Shown piece by piece: positions 357-21,413 of a DNA stretch of 21,413 nucleotides; position 1 is the stretch's first letter, and every line of letters begins with the position of its first letter. The notes below the pieces were generated by a model. It made no database searches, was not told where the DNA came from, and saw nothing but the letters and a program-made list of their open reading frames with translations. Source of the DNA: a virus; IMG/VR virus record IMGVR_UViG_3300043602_000114, positions 1-21,413 of that record; one strand, given 5' to 3'. The position numbers and the translations under genes were made by a program.

Positions 357-360
357 GCGT

Positions 361-525: not shown

Positions 526-1361
526 CACGGACCAGCGACGGCGTCCACGCACTGCCAGGTGCGCTGGTCGAGCACGGCGGTGACCGGCAGCCCGCAGACC
601 CGCTGGAGGTTCTGCATGGCGGCGATGCTCCACAACTGCATGACCTGGTAGGGCGGGTGGATGTCCTGGCCAGCCTCGAAGATGGCAACGTGGTTGAAGT
701 ACGTCACCGCACCCTGTGTAAACGGGTCGTTGGTGCCCGAGGCGTAGCCCGAGCCGAGCACGAGGTCCGGCTTGACGGCCACCGGCCACAGCCCGTACTG
801 GTGGTGCCACGGGTCGTAGACGATCGCTGGCGGCGGGCTCGGCGGGCCCGAGTCCTTGAAGGTGCAGGTGTTGAGCACCCACGGCGCACGCCGGTAGTTC
901 CGGCTCGCCGGGATATCGCTCGGCTGGATATGCCAGGGCTCGGCGTTGACGTTGGCGAAGTCCCGCAGGCAGAACTTCCACTCGTTGGCGTTCATCCAGG
1001 CCCACGAGGAGGTCGGGACCATGTCGCAGGCCACCGCACCGCCGCTCGTGCCGTCGGCGGGGAAGCCCTCGTGGTTGGAGTTGCCGGGCGAGGCGAAGCC
1101 AGGGCCCCCGTTGGTGGGCTGGACCCGCCAGCAGGTGCCAACGCCGAGGCTCACGCCGTTCGCAGCGGCGAACTCCATGAGGCCACGGACCCGCCGCCAG
1201 AACTCGAAGTTGGCCTGGCGCACGGTCTGCTTGGTCTCCAACTGCGCCATCGTCACCTGAGCACCGGCGTAGCCGTACGGATACGGCTGGCCCTCGGGCA
1301 GGCAGGCGGACAGGGCGGCGACAGCGGCGACGGCGCAGAGCGCCGCCAGCGCCCGCCTCAT
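525..1361 (-). CDS. Secreted M15-family peptidoglycan peptidase (putative endolysin) with lipobox
   Basis: 278 residues. The N-terminus is a Sec signal with a lipobox (ALSAC, Cys20), so the protein may be lipid-anchored outside the membrane. Residues ~60-150 match the M15 (VanY / L-alanyl-D-glutamate or D,D-carboxypeptidase) zinc-peptidase layout: SNHEG (His97), ACDM (Asp113) and EPWH (Glu141, His144) give the metal ligands and catalytic base. Residues ~245-275 (MQNLQRVCGLP...LDQRTWQCVD) resemble a small peptidoglycan-binding domain. Its ATG overlaps the upstream small membrane-protein stop by 4 bases (ATGA), a typical holin-endolysin arrangement. Cutting of wall peptides during lysis is inferred. 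The lipobox is unusual for an endolysin; an alternative is a lipoprotein that remodels the host wall. The family call is fairly sure, the lysis role less so. Confidence 0.85.
   Translation of the reverse strand: MRRALAALCAVAAVAALSACLPEGQPYPYGYAGAQVTMAQLETKQTVRQANFEFWRRVRGLMEFAAANGVSLGVGTCWRVQPTNGGPGFASPGNSNHEGFPADGTSGGAVACDMVPTSSWAWMNANEWKFCLRDFANVNAEPWHIQPSDIPASRNYRRAPWVLNTCTFKDSGPPSPPPAIVYDPWHHQYGLWPVAVKPDLVLGSGYASGTNDPFTQGAVTYFNHVAIFEAGQDIHPPYQVMQLWSIAAMQNLQRVCGLPVTAVLDQRTWQCVDAVAGP
716..724 (+). repeat. GTGTAAACG motif, copy 1
   Basis: First of seven exact copies of this 9-base word in the window. This copy is preceded by T, while the other six are preceded by C. It lies in the endolysin gene, where the coding strand reads CCG TTT ACA CAG (Pro-Phe-Thr-Gln), a reading frame different from most other copies. 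This argues for DNA-level rather than protein-level conservation. Confidence 0.75.
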
Positions 1362-1492
1362 GCCAACGCTGGGACGAGGCCGAGGAGCAGCACGAGGCCG
1401 ACCACGGCCACGATCACAGCCCAGAGAGCGCCGGCCACCCGACCGACGACGAAGACGATCACGAGCAGGACGAGGAAAGCGATGAGGCTCAT
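1358..1492 (-). CDS. 44-aa membrane protein, putative holin
   Basis: The start ATG (1492-1490) is preceded by a Shine-Dalgarno AAGGT about 8 bases upstream; a longer frame reaching 1558 would overlap the upstream gene and add non-hydrophobic residues, so the short form is preferred. The product is almost entirely hydrophobic: MSLIAFLVLLVIVFVVG, then RVAGALWAV and a second hydrophobic block, consistent with one long or two short membrane segments. Its TGA overlaps the endolysin ATG (ATGA). Position directly before the endolysin and the small all-membrane form suggest a holin that controls lysis timing. That is inference from context; no family signature is visible. Confidence 0.65.
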   Translation of the reverse strand: MSLIAFLVLLVIVFVVGRVAGALWAVIVAVVGLVLLLGLVPALA

Positions 1493-1502
1493 GGTCTGGA
1501 CC

Positions 1503-1823
1503 TTAGGCGCCGAGTTGCCGGTCGATGCCCTTGCCCTTGTACCGCTTGTTGTAGGCATAGGGCCCGAAGCCGCCCTCGAAGTCCGGGCCTCGGCCCCGAG
1601 CAGCCTTGCGCAGCCTGTACATCTTGTTGTAGGAGCCGTTCGGACCTGGGCCGGTGCCCCGCTTCATCACGGAGCCGTCGGGACGGCGGGTGTTGGGCCC
1701 GTACTTGCGGTTGCCCATCGTGACAGGGTCGAACTGGGGCGAGTCCTCGGTGATCGTCGAGGCCCGGGAGCCCACCTTGCCCTTCTTGCCCTTCACGGCG
1801 TTGAGGTACTTGTTGCCTGCCAT
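1503..1823 (-). CDS. 106-aa basic protein of unknown function
   Basis: ATG at 1823, TAA at 1505-1503. Codons are G/C-ending, as expected for a real gene here. The product is rich in Gly, Lys, Arg, Asn and Tyr (for example MAGNKYLNAVKGKKGKVGSR, near the end YNKRYKGKGIDRQLGA), has no membrane segment and little predicted hydrophobic core. It could be a small basic virion or nucleic-acid-binding protein, but no family is recognised. It lies 10 bases after the upstream gene and 10 bases before the putative holin start, in the same transcript. The ribosome binding site is weak. Confidence 0.65.
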   Translation of the reverse strand: MAGNKYLNAVKGKKGKVGSRASTITEDSPQFDPVTMGNRKYGPNTRRPDGSVMKRGTGPGPNGSYNKMYRLRKAARGRGPDFEGGFGPYAYNKRYKGKGIDRQLGA

Positions 1824-1833
1824 GCGGGCGAGC

Positions 1834-2133
1834 CTACCGGGCCTGGCCGGGCGGCCTGCTTGCCGCTCCTCGGGCCAGCGCCTGCTGGAACCGGGCGCTG
1901 ATGGCCGCCAGCATGGCGTCGTTGACGTCCCGCTTCTTGGGCTGGTAGGCGGGCCGATTCGACGTGAAGCGGGGCAGCGGGGTGGGGCCGGGGCTCGGCT
2001 GCCAGTACATCAACGAGTGCGCACGGCTCCCCGTCGGCTTGCGAGCAGCCCGGAGGATCGAAGCCTGACGGCTGCCCAGTCCCCGGCGGTCTCGGATGTC
2101 GTCGGGGTTGCCCGGAGGCAAGGTCAGGCCCAT
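1834..2133 (-). CDS. 99-aa protein of unknown function
   Basis: ATG at 2133, TAG at 1836-1834; the codon bias matches true genes. The product is basic, with an early charged segment (DDIRDRRGLGSRQASILRAARK), a Pro-rich middle (WQPSPGPTPLPRF) and an amphipathic helix near the end (VNDAMLAAISARFQQALARG). No catalytic motif or membrane segment is visible. It sits between a tiny membrane protein and the 106-aa basic protein in the late-type end of the array. A competing frame over the same stretch (1793-2185) has shadow-like composition. No clear Shine-Dalgarno is seen. Confidence 0.6.
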   Translation of the reverse strand: MGLTLPPGNPDDIRDRRGLGSRQASILRAARKPTGSRAHSLMYWQPSPGPTPLPRFTSNRPAYQPKKRDVNDAMLAAISARFQQALARGAASRPPGQAR

Positions 2134-2142
2134 GGGCCGAGA

Positions 2143-2238
2143 CTAGTGGTCGGCCAGCGCTTGGATGACGAGCACGGTCCACCACGAGACCCCCACGAGC
2201 ACGACGGCCAGGAGGAGGCCCTCGACCCAGCGCCTCAC
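2143..2238 (-). CDS. 31-aa single-pass membrane peptide
   Basis: The GTG at 2238-2236 overlaps the metallophosphoesterase stop TGA (2237-2235) as GTGA, a junction used repeatedly in this window. The product is MRRWVEGLLLAVVLVGVSWW followed by TVLVIQALADH: two arginines, a hydrophobic span of about 20 residues and a short tail, so N-terminus inside by the positive-inside rule. Function is unknown. It may be a small lysis or envelope accessory because the holin-endolysin pair lies ~650 bases downstream. The call rests on the overlap geometry and the clean transmembrane pattern. Confidence 0.5.
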   Translation of the reverse strand: MRRWVEGLLLAVVLVGVSWWTVLVIQALADH

Positions 2239-3284
2239 GGCTGGGCCTTCGAGGAGGCGAAGACGGGCAGGCGCTGGACGATGCCGTGCTCGGGCGTGAC
2301 GAAGAACATGCCCTGCTGGGGCCGCTCGAACCCGAAGCCGCCGTCCTTGGCGTACTCGTCGTACCCCTTCAGGCTGCCGTTCACGACGAAGTCCTGGCCC
2401 CAGAGCATCTGGTGCCAGTGCCCCATCAGGGCCACGTCGTAGGGCTTCTGGACGGCGCCGTACATGGCGTGCCGGCGCAGCCCCCACTTCATCAGCGAGG
2501 GATAGAGCCCGCCGACGCCGCCGGCCGAGCGGAACGAGTCGCCGTGGGTGAGCAGGAAGGTCGTGTCGTAGACCTTGATCTGCTGCTCGGCCGCCGTCGA
2601 GATCTGGAACGTGATGCGGCTGTCGTCCCTCAGCGTGTCGGCGAGCCAGTTGTAGATGATCCAGGCGTTGCTCGACTCGGCTCGCTTCTTCTTGGGCGTC
2701 TGCTTGTAGGTGCGGTCGTGGTTGCCGTCAACCGTGGGGACGTGAACGTGGCCGAACTCGTCGGCGAGGTGCCGCAGGGCCGAAGCGAGAGCCGGCACCC
2801 AGTGGACGATGGTCGCCGGCACAGGCGCAGTGTTGGTTCGAGCCAACTCGTCATGGATCTCTCCTGTGATGATGTCCCCGAGAAGGGGGACGACGATGCC
2901 CTGGAGCGTCACGCCGGCCACGTAGTTCTTGGCCAGGTCGACCGCCCCGTTGACGATGCGCTCCAGCCTGGCGTGAGCGATGGGCCGGTCGTAGGCGTTC
3001 ATGCCGTCCATCTCGTCGAGGTCGACCACCTCGTCGAGGTGCAGGTCGCTCAGCATGAGCACCGGTGTGGCGACGTGGGTGCGCTTCGAGCGGGGCGTGG
3101 TCACCCAGGCCGGCGCCGTCAGGTCCGACGCCTTGACGTAGGCATACCGGTCGAGGCGCTTCTGGAGTGCGTCGAGCGTCAGCGCCTGCTGCCCGCTCTC
3201 CCGCTTCAGGCGCCGGATCTCGTTGAAGCGCTCCTCGGCCAGTCCGTTCGCCCGGGCGAGGGCCTTCTCGATGTCAACGGTCAC
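2235..3284 (-). CDS. Calcineurin-like metallophosphoesterase
   Basis: 349 residues from a GTG at 3284 that overlaps the preceding stop (GTGA); the open frame runs further upstream, but only as a shadow of the preceding gene. An N-terminal helical, charged segment (residues 5-48) could form a coiled coil. The metallophosphoesterase motifs follow in order: SDLHLDE (79-85), LLGD (134-137), DGNHD (186-190), THGDS (246-250) and GHWH (288-291), all with metal ligands intact. Such enzymes cut phosphodiester or phosphomonoester bonds with two metals; the SbcD/Mre11 nucleases belong to the same superfamily. It follows nuclease, nucleotide-hydrolase and polymerase genes, so a DNA-processing or nucleotide role is plausible. 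The substrate is unknown; the superfamily call is secure. Confidence 0.88.
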   Translation of the reverse strand: MTVDIEKALARANGLAEERFNEIRRLKRESGQQALTLDALQKRLDRYAYVKASDLTAPAWVTTPRSKRTHVATPVLMLSDLHLDEVVDLDEMDGMNAYDRPIAHARLERIVNGAVDLAKNYVAGVTLQGIVVPLLGDIITGEIHDELARTNTAPVPATIVHWVPALASALRHLADEFGHVHVPTVDGNHDRTYKQTPKKKRAESSNAWIIYNWLADTLRDDSRITFQISTAAEQQIKVYDTTFLLTHGDSFRSAGGVGGLYPSLMKWGLRRHAMYGAVQKPYDVALMGHWHQMLWGQDFVVNGSLKGYDEYAKDGGFGFERPQQGMFFVTPEHGIVQRLPVFASSKAQP

Positions 3285-4273
3285 TGACCCACCGTACCCC
3301 GTGAGTCGGTGCCGAGGTCCCGGATCTGGAACGTCAGCAGGGCCAGGGCGTGGAAGACCACGGCCTGGAGGTGGAACGAGCCCGTCTCCTCGTCGACATC
3401 CTCGCCGGACCAGAAGGCGGCCAGGTGGCGCTGTAGCGCCGCCATGCTCAGCCCCCAGTCGTAGCCCTTCTCCCAGTTGCGGTCCTCGTACTTGGTCGCC
3501 CCCTTGCCGTAGTGCTCGGCCACGAGGGTGAGGGCGTCGTAGGGCAGCAGGTCGAAGCGGGCCAACTTCGAGCCCTTGGCCCCGCCGGTCTCGGGGTCGA
3601 CGACCATCATCCCCTCGCCCCGCAGCCACTGCTCTTTGAGGGCAGGCAGCGTGTAGGTCACGACGTCCTCGTTCTCGTACTCGTCCTTCAGCCCATGACC
3701 GAACCAGGCGTTCGCCCAAGCCGACCAGTTCGTCCGCCTGGGGTCGACGTAGTTCTGGAACGAGCCCGTGTAAACGGGGCGGTGCTCGGGCGGGACGACG
3801 GCGCTGGCGGCGAGCGCCTCCTCCTCGGGCTCGCTGTCCTCCAGGGTGTAGTCGTCCATGACCTGCCTCACGCTGGTGCTCAGCGGGCCGTCGAGCACCC
3901 ACGGCTGGAGCCGGTCCTCGTAGTAGTGCAGCCGGTAGATGTCCTTACCGAGCGAGCGAGCCAGGCGGTACTCCCGCTGGGCGCCGGCCGACATCTCCCA
4001 GTCGTCGAGCAGCACGAGGGCGTCGGACACGGTGACGGCCGCCTCGTCCCACCGGAACGCCTCGGCGAGATCGAAGCGGGGCAAGCCCTCGACGTCACCG
4101 GCGAGGTAGCCCGGGTCGAGGATGGACACGGAGCCCGAGTCCAGGTCGTGCCTGGCCGGGTTGAAGACGTGCCAGCCGAAGCCCGAGAGCAGCGTGTCCG
4201 CCGCCATGAAGCGGGGGAAGTTGAACTCGGGGATGCCCCGCATGGGGCCGGCAATGTAGGCGGTAGTGGTCAT
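3281..4273 (-). CDS. DUF4406 domain fused to dATP/dGTP diphosphohydrolase-like domain (DUF5664)
   Basis: 330 residues; the start ATG at 4273 has a strong GGAGG five bases upstream and overlaps the HNH gene stop (ATGA), so the longer frame to 4441 is rejected. Residues ~4-115 (IAGPMRGIPEFNFPRF; DALVLLDDWEMSAGAQREY) match DUF4406, a nucleoside 2-deoxyribosyltransferase-like fold. Residues ~228-325 match the DUF5664 / phage dATP-dGTP diphosphohydrolase pattern: KLARFDLLP, GATKYEDRNWEKGYDWG, LQRHLAAFWSGEDVDEETG and HLQAVVFHALAL, an all-helical MazG-type arrangement with acidic metal-binding residues. Together they suggest nucleotide-pool remodelling during infection, in the cytoplasm. The linker (116-227) is acidic and unassigned. 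Domain identification is fairly confident; the exact substrate is inferred from the family. Confidence 0.8.
   Translation of the reverse strand: MTTTAYIAGPMRGIPEFNFPRFMAADTLLSGFGWHVFNPARHDLDSGSVSILDPGYLAGDVEGLPRFDLAEAFRWDEAAVTVSDALVLLDDWEMSAGAQREYRLARSLGKDIYRLHYYEDRLQPWVLDGPLSTSVRQVMDDYTLEDSEPEEEALAASAVVPPEHRPVYTGSFQNYVDPRRTNWSAWANAWFGHGLKDEYENEDVVTYTLPALKEQWLRGEGMMVVDPETGGAKGSKLARFDLLPYDALTLVAEHYGKGATKYEDRNWEKGYDWGLSMAALQRHLAAFWSGEDVDEETGSFHLQAVVFHALALLTFQIRDLGTDSRGTVGQ
3768..3776 (+). repeat. GTGTAAACG motif, copy 2
   Basis: Exact copy, preceded by C. It lies in the linker of the DUF4406/diphosphohydrolase gene, where the coding strand reads GTT TAC ACG (Val-Tyr-Thr in PVYTG). It lies 3,052 bases from copy 1. 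Confidence 0.75.
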
Positions 4274-7087: not shown

Positions 7088-7091
7088 GGGT

Positions 7092-7107
7092 TCCTCTCAT
7101 TCCTCTC
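7092..7107 (-). promoter_or_regulatory. Tandem Shine-Dalgarno copies before the primase-polymerase
   Basis: On the minus strand the 7-base word GAGAGGA occurs twice, nine bases apart (complement at 7101-7107 and 7092-7098). The copy nearer the gene is correctly placed for the ATG at 7087; the farther copy precedes an out-of-frame ATG. Both are perfectly complementary to UCCUCUC in the loop of the hairpin at 7121-7150. Confidence 0.6.
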
Positions 7108-7120
7108 GCTGTGGTCGCCA

Positions 7121-7150: not shown

Positions 7151-7165
7151 CAGCACTCGACGTCG

Positions 7166-7654: not shown

Positions 7655-8436
7655 GGGGTCTCCTTCGTCGGGGTGGGCTTGCGGTACGCACGGCCGATGG
7701 CCGCCTTGATCTTGGGGATGGTCGGGTCTGTCATCGAGCCCCTCAGGGTACTGGTCCAGCGGTTGCCGGCCACCCTGCGGGGATCGTCGGGAGCCCACGA
7801 GAGGGTGCGGACGTCGGTGCCGTCCGGCTTGGTGCCCTTCTCGTACTCGCCGATCACGTTGGCCCACTCCTCCAGCACCTTGCGGGTGGCGGCGGGCAGA
7901 TCCGGGCCCCGGCGGTACTCGCCGTGCTCGGGGTCTGGGTCCCTGGTGTGGCAGAGGACGATGATGTCCTTGCCCGTGCGCCGCAGCATGCTGAGCACAC
8001 GACCGTACGCCTGGGCCAGGGCGTTGTAGTCCCGGAGTTCGGGCACGGTCTTGCCAATCTGGAGCATGCCGGCGTTCTCGCCCCGGTTCTGCCCGGTGGC
8101 GGTGTCGACGGCCTCCTCGATCAGGAAGCGGGCCAGGGCGTTGCCGGTGTCGATGACCCAGGTGTCTCGCTCCCAGGAGCGGCGCTTGGCCTCGACGAAC
8201 AGGCCGTTGAGGTCCTGCCAGGCGGTGGGTTCCCAGGAGAGGATGTCGGCGCCCTCGGGCACCGCCTCGCCTTCGAGGGACCCGTCCAGGTCGATGAACA
8301 GCGGTCGGCTGGCGGTGGCCGCCAGCGTCGTCTTGCCGACAGCCTTGCGGCCGTACACGACGAGACGGAGGGGAGGAACCTGTCGAACAACCGGGGCCGG
8401 CTGCTGCGACAGGGTGGGGATGGTGCTACCAGTCAT
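7651..8436 (-). CDS. RecA-fold AAA ATPase, Sak4-like recombination protein
   Basis: 261 residues. Residues 24-37 carry a Walker A loop (VVYGRKAVGKTT), LFIDLDGS (46-53) follows as expected for this group, and TWVIDTGN (92-99) is the Walker B strand; IIVLCHTRD is a later conserved strand. This arrangement, close to a single RecA core without the RecA N- and C-domains, matches phage 'AAA domain' proteins often called Sak4, which promote single-strand annealing with help from an SSB. The SSB-like gene follows with an ATGA overlap and a Cas4-like nuclease is encoded upstream, supporting a recombination role. ATG at 8436 has GGAG five bases upstream and overlaps the WhiB gene stop (ATGA). The ATPase call is secure; Sak4 assignment is probable. 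Confidence 0.82.
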   Translation of the reverse strand: MTGSTIPTLSQQPAPVVRQVPPLRLVVYGRKAVGKTTLAATASRPLFIDLDGSLEGEAVPEGADILSWEPTAWQDLNGLFVEAKRRSWERDTWVIDTGNALARFLIEEAVDTATGQNRGENAGMLQIGKTVPELRDYNALAQAYGRVLSMLRRTGKDIIVLCHTRDPDPEHGEYRRGPDLPAATRKVLEEWANVIGEYEKGTKPDGTDVRTLSWAPDDPRRVAGNRWTSTLRGSMTDPTIPKIKAAIGRAYRKPTPTKETP

Positions 8437-9107
8437 GGATCTCCATTCGACTGACGTAGGTGGGTTGGGAGCCAGCGCCCGATCGCTCGGGGGAGGGCCC
8501 GCCGCACATAGTAGCGGCTGTGTGCGTTGTCCCCTACCTGGCGCTCGGGGTTACCGACCACGTCGAGCGTGCCGTCGGCCACGAGGGCGTCGAGCACGAT
8601 GCGCAGCGGGCCGGGGTTGCAGGGGATGGCGAGGCAGATAGCCGTCTGGGAGGGAAGGCGCCCGCCCTCGGGGACCGACCTGAGCCACCGCAGGACCTTG
8701 TGGGCCAGCGTGGTGTGGTGCCGGCTCCAGCGGTCGCCGTCGTTCGGTATGGGGGGCACTGAGCGCCCGTTCTGCGTGCCGGCGATGACGTCGAGCGGGT
8801 CGGCGCCCTTCAGCCCGCCTCGCTTCTCGATCGACCAGCGCTGCTGCGGGGTGAGCCCGCCACGGATGCCATCCCGCTCGACGGAGTCGATGGCCAGGCC
8901 GTGCTCCTCGTAGAGCGCATGTTCGGCGCACTCATAGCGGACTGGGCACAGGGCGCACACGGCCCGAGCGGCCTCGATCCCCTCCGCACTGGCCTCGATC
9001 TCCTCGCCGTCGCCCAGGGCGTCCTCGAAGAACATCCCTGGGGGTGCTCCAAGGCATTGAGCGTGGTCCAGCCAGTCGAAGTCGTTGCGCCAGCCGAAGC
9101 GGGTCAC
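8433..9107 (-). CDS. WhiB-like iron-sulfur protein with C-terminal winged-helix-like region
   Basis: About 224 residues. Four cysteines are spaced as in WhiB proteins: Cys18 (AQCLG), then Cys51/Cys54/Cys60 (AVCALCPVRYEC), followed by the GIRGG turn (80-84) and a basic stretch, so it should hold a 4Fe-4S cluster and act on transcription by binding sigma factor or DNA. WhiB proteins are confined to actinobacteria and their phages, which identifies the host group. Residues ~128-187 (HHTTLAHKVLRWLRSVPEGG ... IVLDALVADGTLDVVGNP) look like a winged helix. WhiB proteins are usually 80-130 residues, so the extension is notable. The start GTG 9107 overlaps the upstream small ORF stop (GTGA); GTG 9116 is an alternative three codons longer. 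Confidence 0.88.
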   Translation of the reverse strand: MTRFGWRNDFDWLDHAQCLGAPPGMFFEDALGDGEEIEASAEGIEAARAVCALCPVRYECAEHALYEEHGLAIDSVERDGIRGGLTPQQRWSIEKRGGLKGADPLDVIAGTQNGRSVPPIPNDGDRWSRHHTTLAHKVLRWLRSVPEGGRLPSQTAICLAIPCNPGPLRIVLDALVADGTLDVVGNPERQVGDNAHSRYYVRRALPRAIGRWLPTHLRQSNGDP

Positions 9108-9271
9108 AGCATCCACTTTGTGAGGAACCAGCCCTCACCCGGCCAGTGTTCGAGACCGTCCGGGTCGATCTCCATGATCTCGGCGTCGGACGGCGGGTTG
9201 TCCTGGTCGAAGTGCCACGCCTTCAGCGTGTAGCCGTTGCCCAGTTCGGCCGTCCGATCAGGCTCCCTCAT
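9104..9271 (-). CDS. 55-aa acidic protein of unknown function
   Basis: A short frame between the exonuclease and WhiB genes: ATG at 9271, TGA at 9106-9104, with GGGAGG upstream. The nearer ATG at 9277 is only three bases from that site, so 9271 (nine bases away) is preferred; either gives the same protein bar two residues. The product begins MREPDRTAELGNGYTLKAWH and ends EGWFLTKWML, is acidic and Trp-rich, and has no membrane segment. It overlaps the exonuclease 3' end by 14 bases and the WhiB start by 4 (GTGA). No family is recognised. The G/C-ending codons and the way it fills the gap support a real gene. Confidence 0.65.
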   Translation of the reverse strand: MREPDRTAELGNGYTLKAWHFDQDNPPSDAEIMEIDPDGLEHWPGEGWFLTKWML

Positions 9272-10196
9272 CGTCATCGTCCTCCCACTCGATCATGTCG
9301 CCGTAGTCCTCACGGCCGAGCAGGGTACCCCAGCACTCGGACCGAGCGGGGCAGTGCCCGCAGTGCGCCCCGATGTTGGGCAGCGGGTCGGCCTTGACGT
9401 TTCCGTCTGTGATGTCCTGGCGCCGCTTGATGGCCTCGGCCACGATCAGCAGCGCCTCGTCGATCTGCGGCTGCTCCCGGCTGAGGAGGATGCGGTTGAA
9501 GGACTCGGCCGGCGGCCGCTCGATGCCGGGGTCCATCGCCTGGATGGCCTTGGCCTGGAGCCGCAGTTCCTTCTTGGTGACGCCGGCCACGTTGCCCATC
9601 TCGGCCTCGATCTCGGCCAGGGTGCGCTGCTTGGGCTTCCAACGGTACGTGTAAACGCCGTCGAACAGCACGCCGAGCACGGGCATCTCGGTGAGTTGCT
9701 GCACCCCGTGGGTGTACAGCGTCTCCTGGAGCGTGACGTCGAGCAGGGCCAGCCGCCGCCGGCTGCCGTACGACTTCGTCTCCAGCACCCAGAGGGCGCC
9801 CCCCTGGTCCATGATGACCTTGTCGACGTGGAACGTGAGGTCGACGCCCTCGACGGGGCTCGGGATGCGGCCCTCCATCTCGCTGGCGTAGAGGCTCAGG
9901 CCAGTGTCGCTCGGCGAGCGCCCGTAGACCTGGATGTAGCGGTCGATCAGCCAGAACAGCAGGTCGGCCTCCTCGCCGATCAGCCCGTAGGCCGTGGGCG
10001 TGAAGTAGCCCGGCACCTCGTACCGGCCCCACCACCAGTCGTCGGTGAACAGGTGCCAGGACGTGCCGATGCGCAGGCCCTTGCCCTCCTGGTCGTAGCC
10101 CTGGCGGTAGGTGTAGTCCCACTGCCGCTCGCAGGTGGTCAGGGTGTCGATCTCGCTGTAGGAGATCGTGGCGGGGTCGTACGCTCGAAGCGCCAT
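9258..10196 (-). CDS. PD-(D/E)XK exonuclease, Cas4/RecB-like, with iron-sulfur cysteines
   Basis: 312 residues; ATG at 10196 overlaps the preceding stop by one base (TGATG). The RecB-family nuclease residues are visible: His48 (GTSWHLF), Asp125 (TFHVDKV), Glu139-x-Lys141 (VLETKS) and Gln157 (QETLYTHGV). Cys22 (TTCERQW) together with Cys279, Cys282 and Cys288 (AHCGHCPARSECWG) makes the N-/C-terminal four-cysteine cage of a 4Fe-4S cluster, as in Cas4 and AddB. It probably resects DNA ends for recombination with the Sak4-like ATPase and SSB-like protein encoded downstream. The tail is very acidic (EWEDDDDEGA). No CRISPR array or other cas gene is in the window, so a CRISPR role is not suggested. 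Confident family call. Confidence 0.9.
   Translation of the reverse strand: MALRAYDPATISYSEIDTLTTCERQWDYTYRQGYDQEGKGLRIGTSWHLFTDDWWWGRYEVPGYFTPTAYGLIGEEADLLFWLIDRYIQVYGRSPSDTGLSLYASEMEGRIPSPVEGVDLTFHVDKVIMDQGGALWVLETKSYGSRRRLALLDVTLQETLYTHGVQQLTEMPVLGVLFDGVYTYRWKPKQRTLAEIEAEMGNVAGVTKKELRLQAKAIQAMDPGIERPPAESFNRILLSREQPQIDEALLIVAEAIKRRQDITDGNVKADPLPNIGAHCGHCPARSECWGTLLGREDYGDMIEWEDDDDEGA
9649..9657 (+). repeat. GTGTAAACG motif, copy 4
   Basis: Exact copy, preceded by C. It lies in the Cas4-like exonuclease gene; the coding strand reads GTT TAC ACG (Val-Tyr-Thr in GVYTY). It lies 2,977 bases from copy 3. Confidence 0.75.
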
Positions 10197-10597: not shown

Positions 10598-11975
10598 GCC
10601 AGCGTCCTCTCACCAGGTCCTGCCAGGTCGCCCCGAGCAGGAGTTCCTTCACGTCCTTCTGCTGCCTGTTGGCCTCGGCGACCACCTCGTCGATGGTGTC
10701 CTCGGCCGTCAGGGCCCAGACGTTGACCGGGCGGGCCTGCCCCGAGCGCCAGAGGCGCCCGACGGCCTGCCGGTTCACGTCGTAGACCCAGTCCAGGTCA
10801 ACGAAGATCAGGTTACGGCTATTCCGCTGAAGACCGTCGACCCCGACACCCAGGGCGGCGATGGTGCCCACGATGGCCGGGAGCCCACCCCCGGCGAAGC
10901 GGTCCTTGTTGCGGTCCCGGTCCGCCTGCGACAGCCGGCCCGTGTAAACGACCGAGCCCGGGATCTTGGCGGCGATGCGGTGCGCTGTCTCCTGGTTGGC
11001 GGTGAGCACCACGGCGGGCTCGTCGATGTCCTCGACTAACTCGACGGCGGCCTTCGCCTTCGAGGTCAGGCCGTCCTCGGGGTGGACGTCGGCCCAGCCG
11101 CTGACCAACTGGCGCAGCCGCCCCTGGCGGGCGATGGCCAGGTCGGCCGAGATGAAGCCCTCGTCGTTGTCGGCCTCGACCCAGCCGTGCTCGGCCATCT
11201 GGTTGTAGACCTTGCGCTCGGCCGGCGCCAGGGCCACGGCCAGGTTCGTCCAGATCGGCTCACTGCCCAACTCGGGCATGAGGTCCTCGATCGGCCGGTA
11301 GAGCAGCAGCCCGAGCATCTCCTGCTGGAGGATCTTCTCGTGGCCCGGCCGGATGGCGCCGACGATGCGCACGGGGAAACGGGTCGCCTTGCCGAAGGTG
11401 GTCGACTTCACGTAGAAGTGCTCCTCGGCCCACGGCCAGTACGCCGGCCAGCGGTGGCGGTCGATGAGGTGGAGCAGGGCCCAGAGTTCCTCGGCCCGGT
11501 TCATGACGGGGGTGCCGGTGACGGCCAGGAACGTGGTCGAGGCGGTCGACAGGCGGGACACGGCCCGGGAGATCTGGGAGGTGCGGTTCTTCAGCCGGTG
11601 CGCCTCGTCGAACACCAGGTTGCGGATCTTGGCCTTCAGCAGCCAGTCCACGTCCCTGCGTACGGCCTCGTAGTTGGTGATGAGCGCCCCACCACGCTGA
11701 AGCCAAGAGTCAACAGCGGTCGTGCGGCGCTTGGCGCTGTCGGAGCCCCGGTACCAGGCCAGCGGCCAGTCGGGGACGGCGTCCTGGGCCTCGTGCACCC
11801 AGTGGTGGAGGACGTTGGCCGGCGTCACGATCAGCGTGCGGCCGGGCCTGCCGGCGGCGAGAGTCAGCGACGTGGCGGTCTTTCGGGTGCCGGGAGGGTC
11901 ACCGTAGATGGCCCTCCCAGCGGTCCCGAGGAACCCGAGCGCCTGCTCTTGGAACTCAGCGAGTGCTCGGGGCAT
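10560..11975 (-). CDS. SNF2-type superfamily 2 helicase
   Basis: 471 residues, ATG at 11975 with AGGA just upstream. Motif I is GDPPGTRKT (25-33), motif Ia LIVTPANVLHHW, motif II FDEAH (122-126), motif III VTGTP (152-156) and motif VI QAVGRLWRSGQ (403-413), the last being characteristic of the SNF2/Rad54 group. The motif I loop ends T-R-K-T rather than G-x-G-K-T, an unusual substitution beside the essential lysine. Phage SNF2-like enzymes translocate on double-stranded DNA and help replication, recombination or branch migration. It is transcribed ahead of the unknown 133-aa gene and the Cas4-like exonuclease, which places it in the recombination group. The gap to the upstream secreted-protein gene is only five bases. 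Confidence 0.92.
   Translation of the reverse strand: MPRALAEFQEQALGFLGTAGRAIYGDPPGTRKTATSLTLAAGRPGRTLIVTPANVLHHWVHEAQDAVPDWPLAWYRGSDSAKRRTTAVDSWLQRGGALITNYEAVRRDVDWLLKAKIRNLVFDEAHRLKNRTSQISRAVSRLSTASTTFLAVTGTPVMNRAEELWALLHLIDRHRWPAYWPWAEEHFYVKSTTFGKATRFPVRIVGAIRPGHEKILQQEMLGLLLYRPIEDLMPELGSEPIWTNLAVALAPAERKVYNQMAEHGWVEADNDEGFISADLAIARQGRLRQLVSGWADVHPEDGLTSKAKAAVELVEDIDEPAVVLTANQETAHRIAAKIPGSVVYTGRLSQADRDRNKDRFAGGGLPAIVGTIAALGVGVDGLQRNSRNLIFVDLDWVYDVNRQAVGRLWRSGQARPVNVWALTAEDTIDEVVAEANRQQKDVKELLLGATWQDLVRGRWHDHSPMAEAAEA
10942..10950 (+). repeat. GTGTAAACG motif, copy 5
   Basis: Exact copy, preceded by C. It lies in the SNF2-type helicase gene; the coding strand reads GTT TAC ACG (Val-Tyr-Thr in VVYTG). 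Confidence 0.75.
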
Positions 11976-11980
11976 TCGTC

Positions 11981-12843: not shown

Positions 12844-12850
12844 TCTGGGC

Positions 12851-13801: not shown

Positions 13802-13810
13802 GCTCCGAGA

Positions 13811-14020: not shown

Positions 14021-14029
14021 TGCCCGAGG

Positions 14030-17000
14030 TTACGGGCACTTCACGAAGCGGCCGCTTGCGTCCCGGCACGGGGCGCCCTTGCGGGGGCTCACGGGCGTCG
14101 GGGTAGCCGTCGTGGTCGGCGGCGCAGCGGCCTTCTCCCTGGCCAGCCGGGCCTTCTCGACCTTGGCGTCGTGGGTGGCCTTGGCCTTGGCCGCCTTGTC
14201 TGCCGCCGCCTTGTCCTTCTCGGCCTGGGACTTCTCGGGCTTCTTGGGCGGCGGGTTGACCTTGGCCTTGGCCTTGGCGATCCGCTCCCGGATCTTGTCC
14301 ATCTCCTCGGGCGAGTAGATGCGGGGAGCGCCCAGGTACCGGCCGATGCTCGTGGCGGCCGACGGGCTCTGCTCGTACACGTCCTTGCCCCGGAGGGTCT
14401 GCTCGCCCATGCGGATCAGGGGGACGCCCCGGATCGTCTCCTGGAGGTCCTTGACGGGGTCGCTCTTGGGCACGGCGTAGCCGGTGGGGCTGTAGCCGTA
14501 GGCGTCGGCGAAGCCGCCCTCGGGGGCGTTCAGGCCGGCCCGCACGAACGAGCCCACGAACGGGTTCATGGCGTCGGCGATCCCGTTCACCGTGGCCAGG
14601 CTGCCGGCGTCGAGCAGGGGGTTCCACGGCCGGGTGTTGATGCCCTGCCCGTGGTTGCCGATGACGAGGCCCTCGTAGGCGCTCGGCAGGATGCCGCCGA
14701 ACTGGTCCTGGAGGTACTCGGTGTGCTGCACGCCCAACTGCTGGAGCAGGCGGGTGGCCAGGGGGTGATCGGCCGGCATCCGGGCGATCAACTTGACCAT
14801 GCCCTTCTGCCAGGCGTAGAAGGGGAGGACCGAGCGAACGAAGCCCCGCTCCAGCGGCCCGAGGTTGCCGTAGTCGACCATCGCCTCGTACGCCCGGTGC
14901 AGGGCGGCCTCTCGGGTGGCGCCGGTGCGCATGGCCCGGTCCATCACGGCGGTGCGGCTGAACTCGTCGACCACCTCGTTGAGCCGGGCGGTCTTCGCCT
15001 TCAGGGTGTCCCGGAGCGCCCGGTTCGACTCGTGCAGGGCGATGTCCTTCAGCCCCCGGCCCACGACGGTGCCGGCCCCCTCCTCGAAGGAGTTGATCGA
15101 CTGGCCGACGATCTCGGCCGGCATGTTGCCGGCCCGCACCTTGCGCCAGGCCGACAGCCAGTCCTGCGGGCGCACGCCCTCCAGGGTGGCCAGGATGACG
15201 TTGCCGAACAGGTTGTTGACGTACCACTTGGGGCTCAGGGTCAGCACGAAGGTCCGCCACGGCGAGGTGAAGCGGCGGATCATGCGGAAGGTCCAGTGGT
15301 CGTACTCCTTGCTCATCGAGCGCAGGGCGGTCTTGACCTCCTTGGGGACGATGTACTGGGCGCCCTGGACGGCCTGATCCTGGACGCTCTTGGTCGTGAC
15401 CTCCTTGCCGGTGAGCACCCAGTCCCGCTCGGGGTCCCAGGCGACCCAGCCGTCTGGGATAGCCTGCCCGGGCTTGATCGGCTTCGTGTAAACGCTCTCG
15501 ATGTGGTCTACCAGGGCGTTCGTCATCTTCTCGTGGGCGACCTCGACGGCCGCCGAGGCCAGGGCCTCGATGGAGCGGTCAGCGGCGCCGATCTGCACCA
15601 GGCGCCCCGAGCGGGCCTTGCGGGTGCCGGCCTCGATGGCCGTGTCGACGCCCTGGCGGCCGAGGCCGAGGTGGCCGAACAACTGCGCCTGGGCCTTGTC
15701 CCAGGAGACGTCCTTCAGGTGGGTCGGCCGGAAGCCTCGGGCCTCGGCCTGTCGGATGACCTCGCTGAAGGTGTCGGGCACGCCCTCCAGCATCGTGGCG
15801 ATCGAGCCCGTGGGGTCGGCCTTGGCCTCGTTCATGAGGCCCTGCCAGGCGTCGTACATCGGGCTCCAGGCGGCGTCAGCCGGCTTGCGCACGGCGTCGT
15901 GCCGGCGCACGGTGTCCATCGCCTTGGCGGCGCCCCGCTCCAGGCGGCTGGCCTGGACTTCGGAGTCGGCCAGGCCGTCCATCGCATCGAGCACCCGCTT
16001 GTGGCCCTTCTCCAGGGTGCGGATCATGGCCTGGTTGTGGGCGATGCGCAGGTCGACGGCGTCGGAGGACTTGCGGGCCTCGCCGTACATCCTGGCCCGC
16101 TGCATCGACTCGAAGTCCGTCTCCCAGCGATAGCGCTTCGTCTCGACGGGGTGCGGCAACTGCCCGCTCAGCGGGTTGTCCAGCATCTGACCGGCCTCGC
16201 CGGGCGGGGCGAACATGTCGTCCCAGAAGGCCCGGACGTGCTCGGGCACGTCGCCGACGGCCGAGGACAGGTAGGCGCCGTAGGTCTGCTCCAGGCTGGC
16301 GGCGATCTTGCGGAAGGGGGCGTCGAGGCCAGCCCGGCCAGCGGCCAGGGTGCCTCGGCTGGTGACGTAGCCCATGAGCCCGCCGACGAAGCCCTCCTCG
16401 GCCCGCCGCTTGGCGGCGGTCAGCCCTTTGTCGAGCAGGCCGGGGTACGCCCGGGCGAGCGCCTGGACGTCGGCCTCGGGCAGGATCTGGCGCAGCAGGT
16501 GGCCGCCCTCGTGGACCAGGGTGCCGAAGTTGGCGTCCTGGAACAGGCGGACGATCAGGCGGGCGTCGGGGTTCGAGGGCATGACCATCGCCCCGACCAA
16601 CTTGTCGCCGAACGACTGGTGGAGTTCGCCGACCGAGCCCCGGCGGCTCATGTAGTCGGGCTGGACCATCTCGCCCGGCCAGTCGGTGGCGATCTTCTGC
16701 GGGGCGAACTCGCCGTGCGTCACGAGGTAGGCCGTCTGGCCTCGCAACTCGGTGGTCATGGCCCCGAGCGCCTCCTCGGGGAACATCTGGCTGTGCAGGA
16801 TGAAGGCGATGTTCTCACCGTGCCGGCTGAAGGTGTTGCCCGCCTGGGCGTGGCCGAAGAAGTCGTGGACCGCCCGGAACTTGTCGTTGACCATGACCCC
16901 GTCGGGGTCGACGGCGGCCATGAGCGGGTTGGGCTCGTCGCCGGCCAGGGCGGTGCCCCGGATGTTGAGGTGGTTGTTCTTCTGGACGTCCTCCCGCATA

Positions 17001-20000
17001 GCGGCGTGCGCTGCCTCGTCGGCCGACAGGGTGTTGCCGGGGACGCCGACCCCTCCGTACTCCTGGCCGGGCGGGACGTACTCCACCTGGAGCCGGGGCC
17101 CGTCGGGCGCCTGGGTCATCCACTCGTACTGCTGCCGGACGTTGTCGACCAGCACGGCGTAGGAGCGCTCGGCCATCGCTCGCTGCTCGGGCGTCATGGA
17201 CTCCAGGTCGGGCAACTTCTCGTACTGGGCAGCGATCTCGGCCGTGCGCTGCGGGAGCACTCGGACGGTCGTGTCAGTGAACTCGGGACGAGGAAGGCCG
17301 TGGGCCCGGTTGTAGCGGCCAGCCATCGAGGAGGTGTACCGGGTCAGCCAGTCGTTCGGCGCCGGCACCGCCCGGGTCTTGTTGGTGGCCAGGCGCTCGG
17401 CGGCCAGGGCCTGGCTCGTGCCGGCCTCGGTCACCGAGCGAGCGCCCTCGACGGCCATGCTGCCGCCCGAGGGGCCCAGCAACTTGGGCTTCCACGCTGC
17501 TGCGTAGTCGTTCAGCAGGCGGGTGGCCTCGGCGCCGTCGCCGGCCCGCACGGCCGCACGGATCTTGGGGAGGACGTCGCCCTCCCAGACGTTCAGGCTG
17601 TCCAACTTCTGGCCCAGGATCTTGGCGTCGTCCGCCACCTCGTAGCGGGTCTCGGCCGTCTGCCAGTCGTCGGGCAGCATGGCCAGGCTCTCCCGGTCCT
17701 TGGCCGTCATCACGGCGGACTCCACCGGGCTGGAGACGTCGGTGGCCATGAGCCGGGCGTACTCGCCCTGGAGGTCGTTGGGCGGTGTCTCGCCGTGCTT
17801 GGCGTAATCCCGGACCTGGGCGGCGACCTGCTTGCGCTGCGTGCGCACGTCCTGGGCATAGAGGCTGTGGCTCAGTTCCTCGTCCCAGTAGTCCTTCAGG
17901 GGGTCCCAGCCGGGACCCGGGCGCCGGGCGCCCTCGATAGCCCGGCCGATCTCGTCCATCGCCACGTCGTGGTGAGCCAGGAAGCGGCCCCAGTCCTGAC
18001 GGCCCACCTCCTGCTTGGCGTAGACCCAGAGGAGCGCCTGCACCTCGTGCGGCCGCACGTCCCGGCCCAACTTCTGGGTCAGGTTGGCGGCCTGCTCCCG
18101 GATGCCCCGGGCGTACTGGCCATAGGTGCCGCCGCCGGCCCAGTCGGTGGCGTCGAGACCGTACAACTGCGCCATGACCGAGTCGAGGGTCACGGCGGTG
18201 GAGTCGGCCGGGTTGGCGAGGTTGTCCCGGAAGGAGCGCAACTTCGCCAGCGCCTTCGAGCCGTGGTACTCCATGAGCGCCCGGTCGTGCGCCTGGGCGA
18301 TCTCGGGGAAGTTCGCCAGGAGCGTGTCCTCCTGGGCGACCAGGGTCCGGGCCTCCCGGGCGAAGTCGATCCTGCGGGGGACACGAGCCAGTTCCCGGGC
18401 CTGCTTCTCGGTGGCCCCACCCTTCTTGAAAGCGCTCACCCGGGCCTTCATGTCGAGCATCTCCTCGTGCGCTCGCTGGAAGCCCTGGTAGGCGGCGTGC
18501 GCCGGGGTGCCCTCGACGAGCCCGTCGGCGACGAGCGAGCGGGGCATGTTGGTGGCGGCCAGGCCCTTGTTGACGCCGGTCCACGCCTCGGGCAGGGCGG
18601 CGATGTCGGCCGTGTCGGCCTTGCTCAGGTCCAACTTCCCGGTCAGGATGTCGATGACGTTCTGCTTGGGGGCGGCGATCATGCTCGTCGACTTCGTCAG
18701 GTCCCGGAGTTCGGGGATCTCGCTGAAGCGGCGGGCGACCTCGGCCGTCGAGGCGAAGCCCGTCGGCGTCGGGCCCCGGCCCGGGGGCGTCTCCTCGATG
18801 CGCTTCATGAGGGCCTTGGTCGCACGCATGGCGTTGGCCTGGCCCTTGCGCCAGTCGGACATGTTGGCTACGGCCATCATCGCCCGGCCCAGGTTCTGCT
18901 TGGGGTTCGCCATCACCGAGGTCACGGCCAGGAGGTCGTAGAACACGTCGGCCGAGTCCCGGACCGTGCCGTTGAGCATGGTCATCGGCTTGCCTCGGTA
19001 CAGCCCCTCGACGTAGTCATGGGAGTCGTAGTACCAGGACAGGGACTCACTGACCTGCTGCGGGTTCAACTCGGCCAAGGCTCGGCCCGTGGCCTCCTCG
19101 GTGCTCAGGTTCAGCACGGTCTGGGCCAGGTACTGAGCCGACGGGGCCCGGGTGCCAGCCTGCACCTCGGCGCTCTTGAAGAACTCCCCGAGCGGGGTGC
19201 CCTTCGTGGCGTGCATCCCGTAGTCCCAGTTCATCCAGATCTGCATGACACCGTCGGCGGTGCTGGCAGGAAGGCCGACCGCCTTGGCGGCGTCGACCGC
19301 CTCGTGCCACGTCCGCAGCAGCGGGCTCTTGCCCGGGTTGGCCAGGACGTCGTTGTGGTAGATCTTGGCCAGGGCCTGCATGTCGGCGTTGCCCGACAGC
19401 GTGAGGTCGCCCTTCGCCGTGATGTCGTACAGCGCCTGCTGGCCCCGGGCCTCGCCCATGAGGATGGCCAGTTCCCGGTCGTCGACCGTGGTGCTGATGT
19501 CCCCGGCGATGCGGCCCAGGCCGTTGTCATCGGTGTAGGTCCAGAGCCCGAGCCGGGCGTCCGGGTGGTACCAGACCTCCAGGTTGTCTCGGACGATGCC
19601 CCGCAGGATTTCGTCGGAGTTGGCGGCGAACTCCTCGTAGGGCATGTCGATCAGGTCCCGGGCCGTCCCGGTCATCCCGCCCACGGCGTAGCCGGTGTCG
19701 CCGAGCGCCGGCTTGCCGGTGGCGACGTCGAAGGTCGTGCCTCCGTTCACGGCCAGGTCGGCCTTGATGGCCTCGATGGTGCGGTCGATCTTCAGCACGC
19801 CCGGAGGTACCGGCTGGTGCAGTTCGCTGGTGCGCACGCTGATCTCGTCGAGCCGCTTGCGCAGGTCGCCTACGGCGGTCTTTCGGGTCTCGATCACACC
19901 GCTCAACTTCTCGGCCTTGGCGGCCAGGGCCAGGCGCTCGTCCGGCGCACGGTCCCGCAGGTCAGTGGCCCGCTTCAGGTCACGGCGGGCCTTGTTCAGG

Positions 20001-21413
20001 CGCTTCAGGTCGGGACCGCTCAGAAGTGGAGCATCTGTTTCAAGAATGGCGTCCTCCAGGCCGCTGGCGCCGGCCCGGCTGGACAGCAACTCGTTCAGGC
20101 TGGACTTGCGCTGGTCCCGCCAGGCGACCACGGCCTGGTCGATGGCCTCGTTTACACGCTGTGCAGCCTCTGGGCCCAGACGGGCCGTCATCTCGGGCGT
20201 GAGCCCCTCGAAGCCCCGACGAGCCTGGAGCCGCAGAGCGTTGGCGGCCTCGGCGTTGCCGCCGTCTCGGATGACCGTCTCGAACCAGTCGGTGCCGTCG
20301 AGGCGAGCGCCGATCTCCTCGCCGATGATGCGGGACACCTCGAAGCGGTCCAACTCCGGAACCGTGCGCAGGATGTCCTCGGCCGCCGTCTTGGCGGCCA
20401 CTACGGCCGGGGACGCCTGGGCGACCTTCTGCGCCATGCGCACGTTGCGGCCGAGGTCCTGGGTGACCTTGGCCAGGCGGCGCTTGTTCACGAAGGGTGC
20501 CCCGGCGGCCAGGATGCGGTTGACGGGGTCGGGCAACTTAGAGGTGATCCAGGTGGCCCACGGGGCCGGCGGGCGGGAGGCCAACTGCGTGGCCAGGGTG
20601 GCGGCCTCGGGCGCCGGGCTGGCGACCCGGGCGTCGTGGACGGCGTTGTCGACCGCCGCCATGTGGGCGTCCTTCAGGCCAGGAGTGGTGGCCTCGGCCA
20701 GGGTCTTCCCGGCCCGGGTGGCCTCGGTGGTGGTGAGGGCGCCAGCGGCCTCCTCGGCGGTGGGGGCGATGCCGACGGCCGTCTTCACGATCTCGGCGGC
20801 TCGTGGCACTCGGGTGGCGAGGTCCTCGACGAGGCCGGGGCGGACCTTCTCGGCGGCGGCCCGCATGACGTCGCCCATGCTGCGGGCGGCCGTGGCGTAG
20901 GGGTGAGCGATGGGATCGAGGTGCTCAGCAGCGCCGGCCAGCCGCTCGGCCGTGCCCAGCGCCCCGCCCCGCTCGGCCAACTTGGCGCCTGCGCCCAGGG
21001 CGCCCTTGGCGGCGCCGGCAGCGAGGGAGACGTTGCCGACGTCCTCGATGGCGGCCGGGATGATGCCCCGCTCGTGCGCCTTCTCGGCGAAGTCCTTGGG
21101 GCGATACTTGTCGTCGCCGAGGGCCTGGGCCACGGCGTCCGAATAGGAGTCCTTGATCGAGCGGCCCTTGCCCGAGCCGCCGCCCGGGGTGCCCATGCCG
21201 CCAGGGCTGACGTTCGGAACGGCGTTCTTCACTGTGCCAGCGACAGACGAGATGAGCCCCTTGCCCGCTTGGGACCAGACCTGGCCGGCGGGCTGGCCGC
21301 CGGGGGCGAGCGAGGACCCCATCTGGACGATGCCGGTCAGGCCCTGGCCGATCTCCTTGAACGCCTGGCCGATGCCCAACTTGAAGCCGCCCTTACCCGA
21401 GCCCTGGACGGGC
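14030..21413 (-). CDS. Giant polyvalent, probably virion-associated protein with metallopeptidase-like motif (5' end outside window)
   Basis: The frame is open through the right edge; a TTG at 21379 is only an internal candidate, so the gene is partial with at least 2,460 codons. Counting from 21379: residues 1-150 are Gly/Ala-rich; 300-560 are helical and charged; ~1490-1570 contain VHDFFGHA (His1505, His1510) and RHGEN (Glu1522), a possible metal site; 1622-1629 is VHEGGHLL, an HExxH zinc-peptidase motif; ~2033-2065 (SPKWYVNNLFGNVILATLEG) and ~2167-2195 (YGNLGPLERGFVRSVLPFYA) are hydrophobic blocks typical of large phage polyvalent proteins; ~2360-2449 is a Lys/Ala/Pro-rich tail ending RFVKCP. 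Such giants are often carried inside the capsid or ejected with DNA. The role is inferred; the domain reading is moderately certain. Confidence 0.85.
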   Translation of the reverse strand, partial: PVQGSGKGGFKLGIGQAFKEIGQGLTGIVQMGSSLAPGGQPAGQVWSQAGKGLISSVAGTVKNAVPNVSPGGMGTPGGGSGKGRSIKDSYSDAVAQALGDDKYRPKDFAEKAHERGIIPAAIEDVGNVSLAAGAAKGALGAGAKLAERGGALGTAERLAGAAEHLDPIAHPYATAARSMGDVMRAAAEKVRPGLVEDLATRVPRAAEIVKTAVGIAPTAEEAAGALTTTEATRAGKTLAEATTPGLKDAHMAAVDNAVHDARVASPAPEAATLATQLASRPPAPWATWITSKLPDPVNRILAAGAPFVNKRRLAKVTQDLGRNVRMAQKVAQASPAVVAAKTAAEDILRTVPELDRFEVSRIIGEEIGARLDGTDWFETVIRDGGNAEAANALRLQARRGFEGLTPEMTARLGPEAAQRVNEAIDQAVVAWRDQRKSSLNELLSSRAGASGLEDAILETDAPLLSGPDLKRLNKARRDLKRATDLRDRAPDERLALAAKAEKLSGVIETRKTAVGDLRKRLDEISVRTSELHQPVPPGVLKIDRTIEAIKADLAVNGGTTFDVATGKPALGDTGYAVGGMTGTARDLIDMPYEEFAANSDEILRGIVRDNLEVWYHPDARLGLWTYTDDNGLGRIAGDISTTVDDRELAILMGEARGQQALYDITAKGDLTLSGNADMQALAKIYHNDVLANPGKSPLLRTWHEAVDAAKAVGLPASTADGVMQIWMNWDYGMHATKGTPLGEFFKSAEVQAGTRAPSAQYLAQTVLNLSTEEATGRALAELNPQQVSESLSWYYDSHDYVEGLYRGKPMTMLNGTVRDSADVFYDLLAVTSVMANPKQNLGRAMMAVANMSDWRKGQANAMRATKALMKRIEETPPGRGPTPTGFASTAEVARRFSEIPELRDLTKSTSMIAAPKQNVIDILTGKLDLSKADTADIAALPEAWTGVNKGLAATNMPRSLVADGLVEGTPAHAAYQGFQRAHEEMLDMKARVSAFKKGGATEKQARELARVPRRIDFAREARTLVAQEDTLLANFPEIAQAHDRALMEYHGSKALAKLRSFRDNLANPADSTAVTLDSVMAQLYGLDATDWAGGGTYGQYARGIREQAANLTQKLGRDVRPHEVQALLWVYAKQEVGRQDWGRFLAHHDVAMDEIGRAIEGARRPGPGWDPLKDYWDEELSHSLYAQDVRTQRKQVAAQVRDYAKHGETPPNDLQGEYARLMATDVSSPVESAVMTAKDRESLAMLPDDWQTAETRYEVADDAKILGQKLDSLNVWEGDVLPKIRAAVRAGDGAEATRLLNDYAAAWKPKLLGPSGGSMAVEGARSVTEAGTSQALAAERLATNKTRAVPAPNDWLTRYTSSMAGRYNRAHGLPRPEFTDTTVRVLPQRTAEIAAQYEKLPDLESMTPEQRAMAERSYAVLVDNVRQQYEWMTQAPDGPRLQVEYVPPGQEYGGVGVPGNTLSADEAAHAAMREDVQKNNHLNIRGTALAGDEPNPLMAAVDPDGVMVNDKFRAVHDFFGHAQAGNTFSRHGENIAFILHSQMFPEEALGAMTTELRGQTAYLVTHGEFAPQKIATDWPGEMVQPDYMSRRGSVGELHQSFGDKLVGAMVMPSNPDARLIVRLFQDANFGTLVHEGGHLLRQILPEADVQALARAYPGLLDKGLTAAKRRAEEGFVGGLMGYVTSRGTLAAGRAGLDAPFRKIAASLEQTYGAYLSSAVGDVPEHVRAFWDDMFAPPGEAGQMLDNPLSGQLPHPVETKRYRWETDFESMQRARMYGEARKSSDAVDLRIAHNQAMIRTLEKGHKRVLDAMDGLADSEVQASRLERGAAKAMDTVRRHDAVRKPADAAWSPMYDAWQGLMNEAKADPTGSIATMLEGVPDTFSEVIRQAEARGFRPTHLKDVSWDKAQAQLFGHLGLGRQGVDTAIEAGTRKARSGRLVQIGAADRSIEALASAAVEVAHEKMTNALVDHIESVYTKPIKPGQAIPDGWVAWDPERDWVLTGKEVTTKSVQDQAVQGAQYIVPKEVKTALRSMSKEYDHWTFRMIRRFTSPWRTFVLTLSPKWYVNNLFGNVILATLEGVRPQDWLSAWRKVRAGNMPAEIVGQSINSFEEGAGTVVGRGLKDIALHESNRALRDTLKAKTARLNEVVDEFSRTAVMDRAMRTGATREAALHRAYEAMVDYGNLGPLERGFVRSVLPFYAWQKGMVKLIARMPADHPLATRLLQQLGVQHTEYLQDQFGGILPSAYEGLVIGNHGQGINTRPWNPLLDAGSLATVNGIADAMNPFVGSFVRAGLNAPEGGFADAYGYSPTGYAVPKSDPVKDLQETIRGVPLIRMGEQTLRGKDVYEQSPSAATSIGRYLGAPRIYSPEEMDKIRERIAKAKAKVNPPPKKPEKSQAEKDKAAADKAAKAKATHDAKVEKARLAREKAAAPPTTTATPTPVSPRKGAPCRDASGRFVKCP
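15486..15494 (+). repeat. GTGTAAACG motif, copy 6
   Basis: Exact copy, preceded by C. It lies in the giant gene; the coding strand reads GTT TAC ACG (Val-Tyr-Thr in SVYTK). Confidence 0.75.
20149..20157 (-). repeat. GTGTAAACG motif, copy 7 (inverted)
   Basis: The only copy in the opposite orientation: the plus strand reads CGTTTACAC and the word GTGTAAACG is on the coding strand of the giant gene, read as CGT GTA AAC GAG (Arg-Val-Asn-Glu). It is also preceded by C on its own strand. The different reading frame and orientation show that the word is not tied to one peptide. Confidence 0.75.

Follow-up and report, generated by a model that had tools for sequence, protein, structure and literature searches.

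The nine-base word GTGTAAACG is a real, selected and lineage-specific element of the phage DNA studied here; it is strict in sequence, its copy number is kept up while its places turn over and it is maintained at a cost to protein sequence. A word that prevails over protein sequence, and whose number holds steady as its sites come and go, must be under real selection, and some phage-encoded protein very probably reads it. On the sequence evidence we see about an even chance that the word, preferably in its ten-base form CGTGTAAACG, is recognised by a sequence-specific DNA-binding protein which the phage encodes and which serves the whole DNA molecule. The site would be a quasi-palindrome without any obvious functional polarity, maintained at a density of about one per 3.7 kb over the entire genome, and its reader would act genome-wide by marking, organising, replicating, recombining or packaging the phage DNA rather than by switching single genes. 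As the number and spread of the word appear to outweigh its exact places, its most likely role is one for the entire DNA molecule. Dispersed exact words of this type are seldom noticed in phage genomes.

The window and its seven word copies

The window, which is the whole stretch of DNA analysed, is a virus record of 21,413 bases with a GC content of 69.5%. It aligns at about 96% to the record IMGVR_UViG_3300011444_000003 (G001, 48,648 bp), window 1-11843 corresponding to G001 36973-48648 and window 11721-21413 to G001 1-9684. The first 123 bp of G001 recur at its own end, and because of this terminal repeat it is apparently a complete circle of about 48.5 kb. Two further records, G004 and G005, make up one phage of about 48.8 kb with about 70% DNA identity to G001. 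Profiles pointed to a portal, a major head protein and a terminase; also recognised were a PolA-type polymerase, a primase, a PD-(D/E)XK nuclease, an SNF2 helicase, an endonuclease VII, a WhiB protein and a metallophosphatase. The nearest named relatives by the major head protein (about 26%) are the Arthrobacter podovirus Jasmine and the Microbacterium phage Shocker (PMC5513430). The window is part of the genome of an actinophage whose gene set is of podovirus type. Its host is probably a soil actinobacterium and its virion probably of podovirus type; a terminase search of bacterial genomes for a prophage or host found none.

The original prediction had placed seven copies of GTGTAAACG in the window, and every coordinate and strand proved to be exact:

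716..724, plus strand: antisense in the gene 525-1361 (minus), read as Phe-Thr; unlike the other window copies it follows a T and not a C; equivalents at the same position in G001 (37688) and in the relative G002 (845)
3768..3776, plus strand: antisense in the gene 3281-4273 (minus; DUF4406 and dATP/dGTP diphosphohydrolase-like), read as Val-Tyr-Thr; in a hypervariable segment
6672..6680, plus strand: antisense in the primase-like gene 6440-7087 (minus), read as Val-Tyr-Thr; kept in G001, G002 and G003
9649..9657, plus strand: antisense in the PD-(D/E)XK nuclease gene 9258-10196 (minus), read as Val-Tyr-Thr; same codons in G004 (8221)
10942..10950, plus strand: antisense in the SNF2-type helicase gene 10560-11975 (minus), read as Val-Tyr-Thr
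15486..15494, plus strand: antisense in the giant gene 14030-21412 (minus), read as Val-Tyr-Thr
20149..20157, minus strand: sense in the same giant gene 14030-21412 (minus), read as Val-Asn

The giant gene has at least 2,460 codons, had no Pfam hit when a frame of 2,449 aa was scanned and holds two words in opposite orientations.

The word had been described as far rarer by chance, which holds well: dinucleotide-preserving shuffles give 0.03 expected copies (maximum 1) against the seven observed, and the Markov-1 estimate for the window is 0.022. By log-likelihood the word is the top 9-mer and the top 10-mer of the window. The 10-mer assigned to six of the seven copies was found in exactly these, with four of its five base pairs complementary (8 of 10 bases), and all six TAAA tetramers and the sole TTTA of the window do fall within word sites. 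The reading in at least three ways was also confirmed on the coding strand, where Val-Tyr-Thr occurs five times and Phe-Thr and Val-Asn once each. The coding strand is minus for every word-carrying gene of the window, and the strand split of the word there is 6:1.

Since Val-Tyr-Thr is encoded by five of the seven copies, the word might have arisen by chance or as a by-product of peptide or codon usage, but we hold the probability of this to be practically negligible. Shuffling of synonymous codons in the window genes, which preserves the peptides, gives only 0.15 expected copies (maximum 2), and three reading frames are in use. Val-Tyr-Thr is three- to fourfold in excess in the proteomes that bear the word (6 against 1.9 expected and 7 against 1.7), with no such excess in the word-less relatives G459 (1 against 2.0) and G460 (0 against 1.8). 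The peptide by-product was ruled out by these counts together with the codon shuffles.

Copy number, turnover and lineage of the word

The word occurs 7 times in the window, 13 times in G001 (48.5 kb) and 12 times in G004 and G005 together (48.8 kb), where synonymous shuffling gives 2.2 copies for G001 (two fixed intergenic copies included) and 0.4 for G004/G005. Its excess extends to the full genome, as among all 9-mers and 10-mers of the 48.5-kb G001 it ranks first. The copies of the two lineages (13 and 12) were taken as one set of 25 sites, in which all nine bases are invariant in 25 of 25; C precedes 18 sites, G five and T two, and the flanks are random. One-mismatch forms number 0 in G001 and 6 in G004/G005, with no excess over expectation. 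A depletion of these forms in G001 was considered and dropped as not robust, since codon shuffles predict 6.3 of them and Markov-1 predicts 2.7.

Only three positions are common to both lineages; two are genic and lie at homologous codons of the portal gene and the PD-(D/E)XK nuclease gene, and the third is in one intergenic gap before homologous early genes. The other positions differ between the lineages, so the word count has been kept while positions were gained and lost. The same is seen within the variable segment of the gene 3281-4273, where the word is present in the window, G001 and G003, each time elsewhere, and absent from G002. This short hypervariable segment (window 3656-3821) belongs to phages that are otherwise 95% identical. 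A conserved approximate place was rejected, as unshared sites are no closer to each other than random (P 0.46). Genic sites amount to 22 of 25 against coding fractions of 0.93 and 0.91, and the copies are spaced more regularly than by chance (P 0.02 in G001, P 0.07 in G004/G005).

Gains of the word alter the protein, as with Met to Val at G004 1576 and Glu to Asn at G004 30166 relative to G001, and 11 of the 16 peptide-permissive places in G001 minus-strand genes use the word. It is maintained while peptides change, and with its top rank in G001 this means that the refuting outcomes named in the original prediction did not occur. The earlier claim that the signal is in DNA and not in protein is upheld by a count which stays steady in the relative of about 70% identity despite the turnover, by the overriding of protein sequence, by absence from word-less relatives and by the lack of enrichment in host genomes (below). 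The kept count, the turnover, the protein override and the lineage restriction likewise favour the suggested protein-binding or genome-organising site; the recombination or packaging signal suggested along with it would be one possible use of such sites.

The word belongs to one phage lineage and not to hosts. It is carried by fragments with a terminase identity of at least 78% (14 copies in 62 kb) and was found neither in 194 kb of fragments with a terminase identity of 53-68% nor in the 49-kb records G459 and G460. These word-less relatives yielded no comparably strong word, gapped or ungapped, except for a looser motif in G460. Among 396 evenly drawn Actinomycetota genomes the 10-mer has 0-7 copies each, like the reversed control, and the word is not enriched in 20 chosen Actinomycetota genomes. 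Phages do carry host signals, and a host protein might read the word as a host Chi, KOPS, nucleoid or segregation site if the host falls outside the genomes surveyed; with no enrichment in the 20 and 396 genomes and a phage density of about 270 per Mb, we regard this as very improbable, and host Chi and KOPS were rejected on these genome surveys.

Other repeated elements were seen in the same set of records. In G460 its own looser motif, with a partly conserved GAC downstream, has eight copies:

GTATGAGTC motif in G460, at 5455, 25876, 31854, 33149, 47576, 49094, 49143 and 49165: four lie within 47.5-49.2 kb, near the right end

In G459 the TGCGCA-containing 7-mers TGCGCAG and GTGCGCA are 5- to 7-fold above the codon-shuffle expectation, and the effect is milder in G460 and G001. 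Most early-gene gaps of G001 between 31.6 and 37.3 kb share one leader, in the order of a strong stem-loop, ACTGCG with a small stem-loop, and GAGAGGAG, to which ATCATCATG is often added; the word copy at 32551 sits in the small stem-loop of such a leader.

Orientation, placement and candidate reader

The strand split is 10:3 in G001 and 9:3 in G004/G005, and the total excess of 19 of 25 (P 0.015) could mean polarity, though frame availability explains it. Nearly all genes lie opposite the word-rich strand, and of the genic sites 16 are antisense and 6 sense. Antisense copies within minus-strand genes have two readings open to them, Val-Tyr-Thr and Phe-Thr, whereas a sense copy must be read as Val-Asn if it is to avoid cysteine, a stop or the rare TTA codon; with two usable antisense frames against one sense frame, the ratio of 16:6 is as expected. 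A functional polarity was not upheld on this account, and an orientation that follows replication was rejected as well, as the skew at fourfold sites tracks the coding strand only and has no replication-type switch.

This bears on a further reading, in which the word is a Chi-like or replication signal for the phage's own nuclease, helicase or primase and protects or processes the phage DNA. The phage does encode a primase, a PolA, a PD-(D/E)XK nuclease, an SNF2 helicase and a metallophosphatase, and the word has a strict sequence, an even spread and few occurrences in host genomes; but directionality is expected of such a signal and none is seen beyond frame availability, nor is there a skew switch at fourfold sites, and we consider this reading improbable.

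Within the window one gene product was taken up as a candidate reader:

8433..9116, minus strand: candidate reader of 227 aa, with an N-terminal WhiB iron-sulphur domain and a C-terminal GntR-type winged helix

The C-terminus matches Pfam GntR with an E of 0.04 (1.7e-5 in an orthologue), and the structure model matches GntR structures with a best Z of 9.4 and an rmsd of 2.0 over 67 residues; the mean pLDDT of the model is 61.6, the winged helix being the better part. The protein is 77% identical in G004, above most replication genes. It is also encoded by the word-less relatives G459 and G460, and in comparison with FadR the arginines which we take to read G in canonical GntR proteins seem to be missing from it. 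G001 and G004 share further lineage-specific genes, and the reader could be any lineage-specific gene product common to the two. A 212-aa HTH protein of G001 (30594-31232) was rejected as reader, as its position suggests a terminase small subunit and its model is poor. The genes shared with distant word-bearing phages are only those of the major capsid protein, the portal, PolA, the SNF2 helicase, an AAA protein and a tail protein, and a profile comparison in search of a shared reader gene gave no candidate. By its domains the WhiB-GntR protein would be the best candidate in the window, as a lead and not as a result. We infer a phage-encoded reader with genome-wide action, for which this protein is the leading candidate.

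The same protein, by joining a WhiB domain to a GntR-type winged helix, also gives some ground for transcription control, in which a phage repressor or regulator silences or paces transcription from many stoperator-like or other sites. Short sites dispersed in an actinophage are in keeping with this, as are three intergenic sites of the early region, one pair of them in the same gap of two lineages. Known stoperators occupy short gaps between genes, follow the direction of transcription and have several variable bases (PMC9283540), whereas 22 of the 25 sites here are genic, 16 antisense and 6 sense, and all are exact. The stoperator model also calls for a temperate phage with an immunity repressor of two DNA-binding domains; Pfam and PHROGs scans, in which many early genes have no known family, recognised no integrase or immunity repressor among the proteins scanned. 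The stoperator suggestion of the original prediction was therefore not sustained, the sites being strict and mid-gene with neither orientation with transcription, nor promoter or short-intergenic placement, nor tolerated substitutions, and we find transcription control as a whole quite unlikely.

Comparison with known systems

The stoperators of Cluster A mycobacteriophages (L5, TipsytheTRex) are alike in that numerous short sites are scattered over the genome of an actinophage, but the present word is mid-gene, has no transcription orientation and no tolerated variants, and no repressor or lysogeny module was recognised in the phage. The likeness to GntR/HutC operators lies in the GT-N-TA-N-AC frame, which GTGTAAAC fits, in the quasi-palindrome and in the GntR-type winged helix encoded in the window. 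The HutC operator consensus is GTMTAKAC (PMC4494728), and the word differs from it by central bases G/A and not M/K, by an imperfect palindrome, and by a dozen exact copies away from promoters. Most GntR-family operators are less strict than the word; every GTNTANAC is the word, in 7 of 7 cases in the window and 13 of 13 in G001.

A much stronger case was found in the more distant Microbacterium phage Shocker (NC_073470), where CTGTAAAG occurs 45 times against 0.4 expected, on both strands and usually as (C)CTGTAAAGG, and holds 45 of the genome's 47 TGTAAA. It has the same TGTAAA core and quasi-palindrome as the present word, with inverted outer dinucleotides (CC..GG against CG..CG here), and 40 genomes from the actinobacterial family of Agromyces show no enrichment of it. 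The 484-bp end repeat of Shocker holds four copies, with three packed into about 80 bp, and at gene junctions certain copies double as stop codon and ribosome-binding site. Weaker dispersed words (47 copies per 7-mer) are CTGTGGG(A) in Arthrobacter phage Jasmine, which also repeats CTATCCTATCC, and (C)CTGTAGG in ctEqG8; these two are shorter and less strict, and so weaker. Like Shocker's CTGTAAAG(G) they are lineage-specific and over-represented, have TGT-purine at the core and come from phages whose capsid, portal and PolA genes are related, and they differ from the present word by 28-47 copies and somewhat looser flanks. The same search gave no word of comparable strength in ctLwi270, G459, G460 and G461. 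We tentatively propose that podoviruses of actinobacteria may have a class of genome-marking words, in which each lineage has its own exact quasi-palindrome (GTGTAAACG here, CTGTAAAGG in Shocker), spread genome-wide and read by a phage-encoded protein, possibly the WhiB-GntR fusion; such a word would organise or label the DNA and would serve neither nicking nor immunity. Shocker is an isolated phage, so the question is testable at once on virion DNA. To our knowledge, the known dispersed words, which are nick words, have had no assigned function for fifty years.

The main rival reading is that the word is a nick site cut on one strand by a phage nickase, leaving localized single-strand interruptions in virion DNA. 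Such interruptions are known from T5, phiKMV-like phages and the Pseudomonas phages tf and Rembedalsseter, and the nick words of the latter two (TACTRTGMC / WACTRTGAC) are exact lineage-specific 9-mers, with 13-14 copies in a 46-kb podovirus-type genome (PMC3517423, PMC11780129). The present word is of the same type, an exact lineage-specific 9-mer lying in genes at about the coding density, and among the phage's gene products are nucleases of the endonuclease VII-like, PD-(D/E)XK and metallophosphatase types. As a positive control the same pipeline recovered the tf word TACTGTGAC(G) as the top 9/10-mer of the tf genome, where it scores weaker than the present word. Against nicking, the known words are on one strand only (14:0 in tf) whereas the splits here are 10:3, 9:3 and 6:1 with an excess that matches the frame-availability prediction, the present word is palindromic at four of five pairs and the tf word is not, and no nickase was identified in the phage; we regard nicking as unlikely, though it leads the alternatives.

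By analogy the nick word of tf and its relatives is the closest described kind, and membership is not claimed because nick words keep strictly to a single strand and that of tf is non-palindromic. An exact short word over-represented at about 8-14 copies in a 43-48-kb genome is found here too (13 and 12 copies), while copies on one strand only are not. The present word differs in being quasi-palindromic, on both strands and of another sequence; it is alike in being a strict word of about nine bases, with about 13 copies per podovirus-type genome of 45-48 kb, which ignores gene boundaries and keeps its copy number across relatives of little nucleotide similarity.
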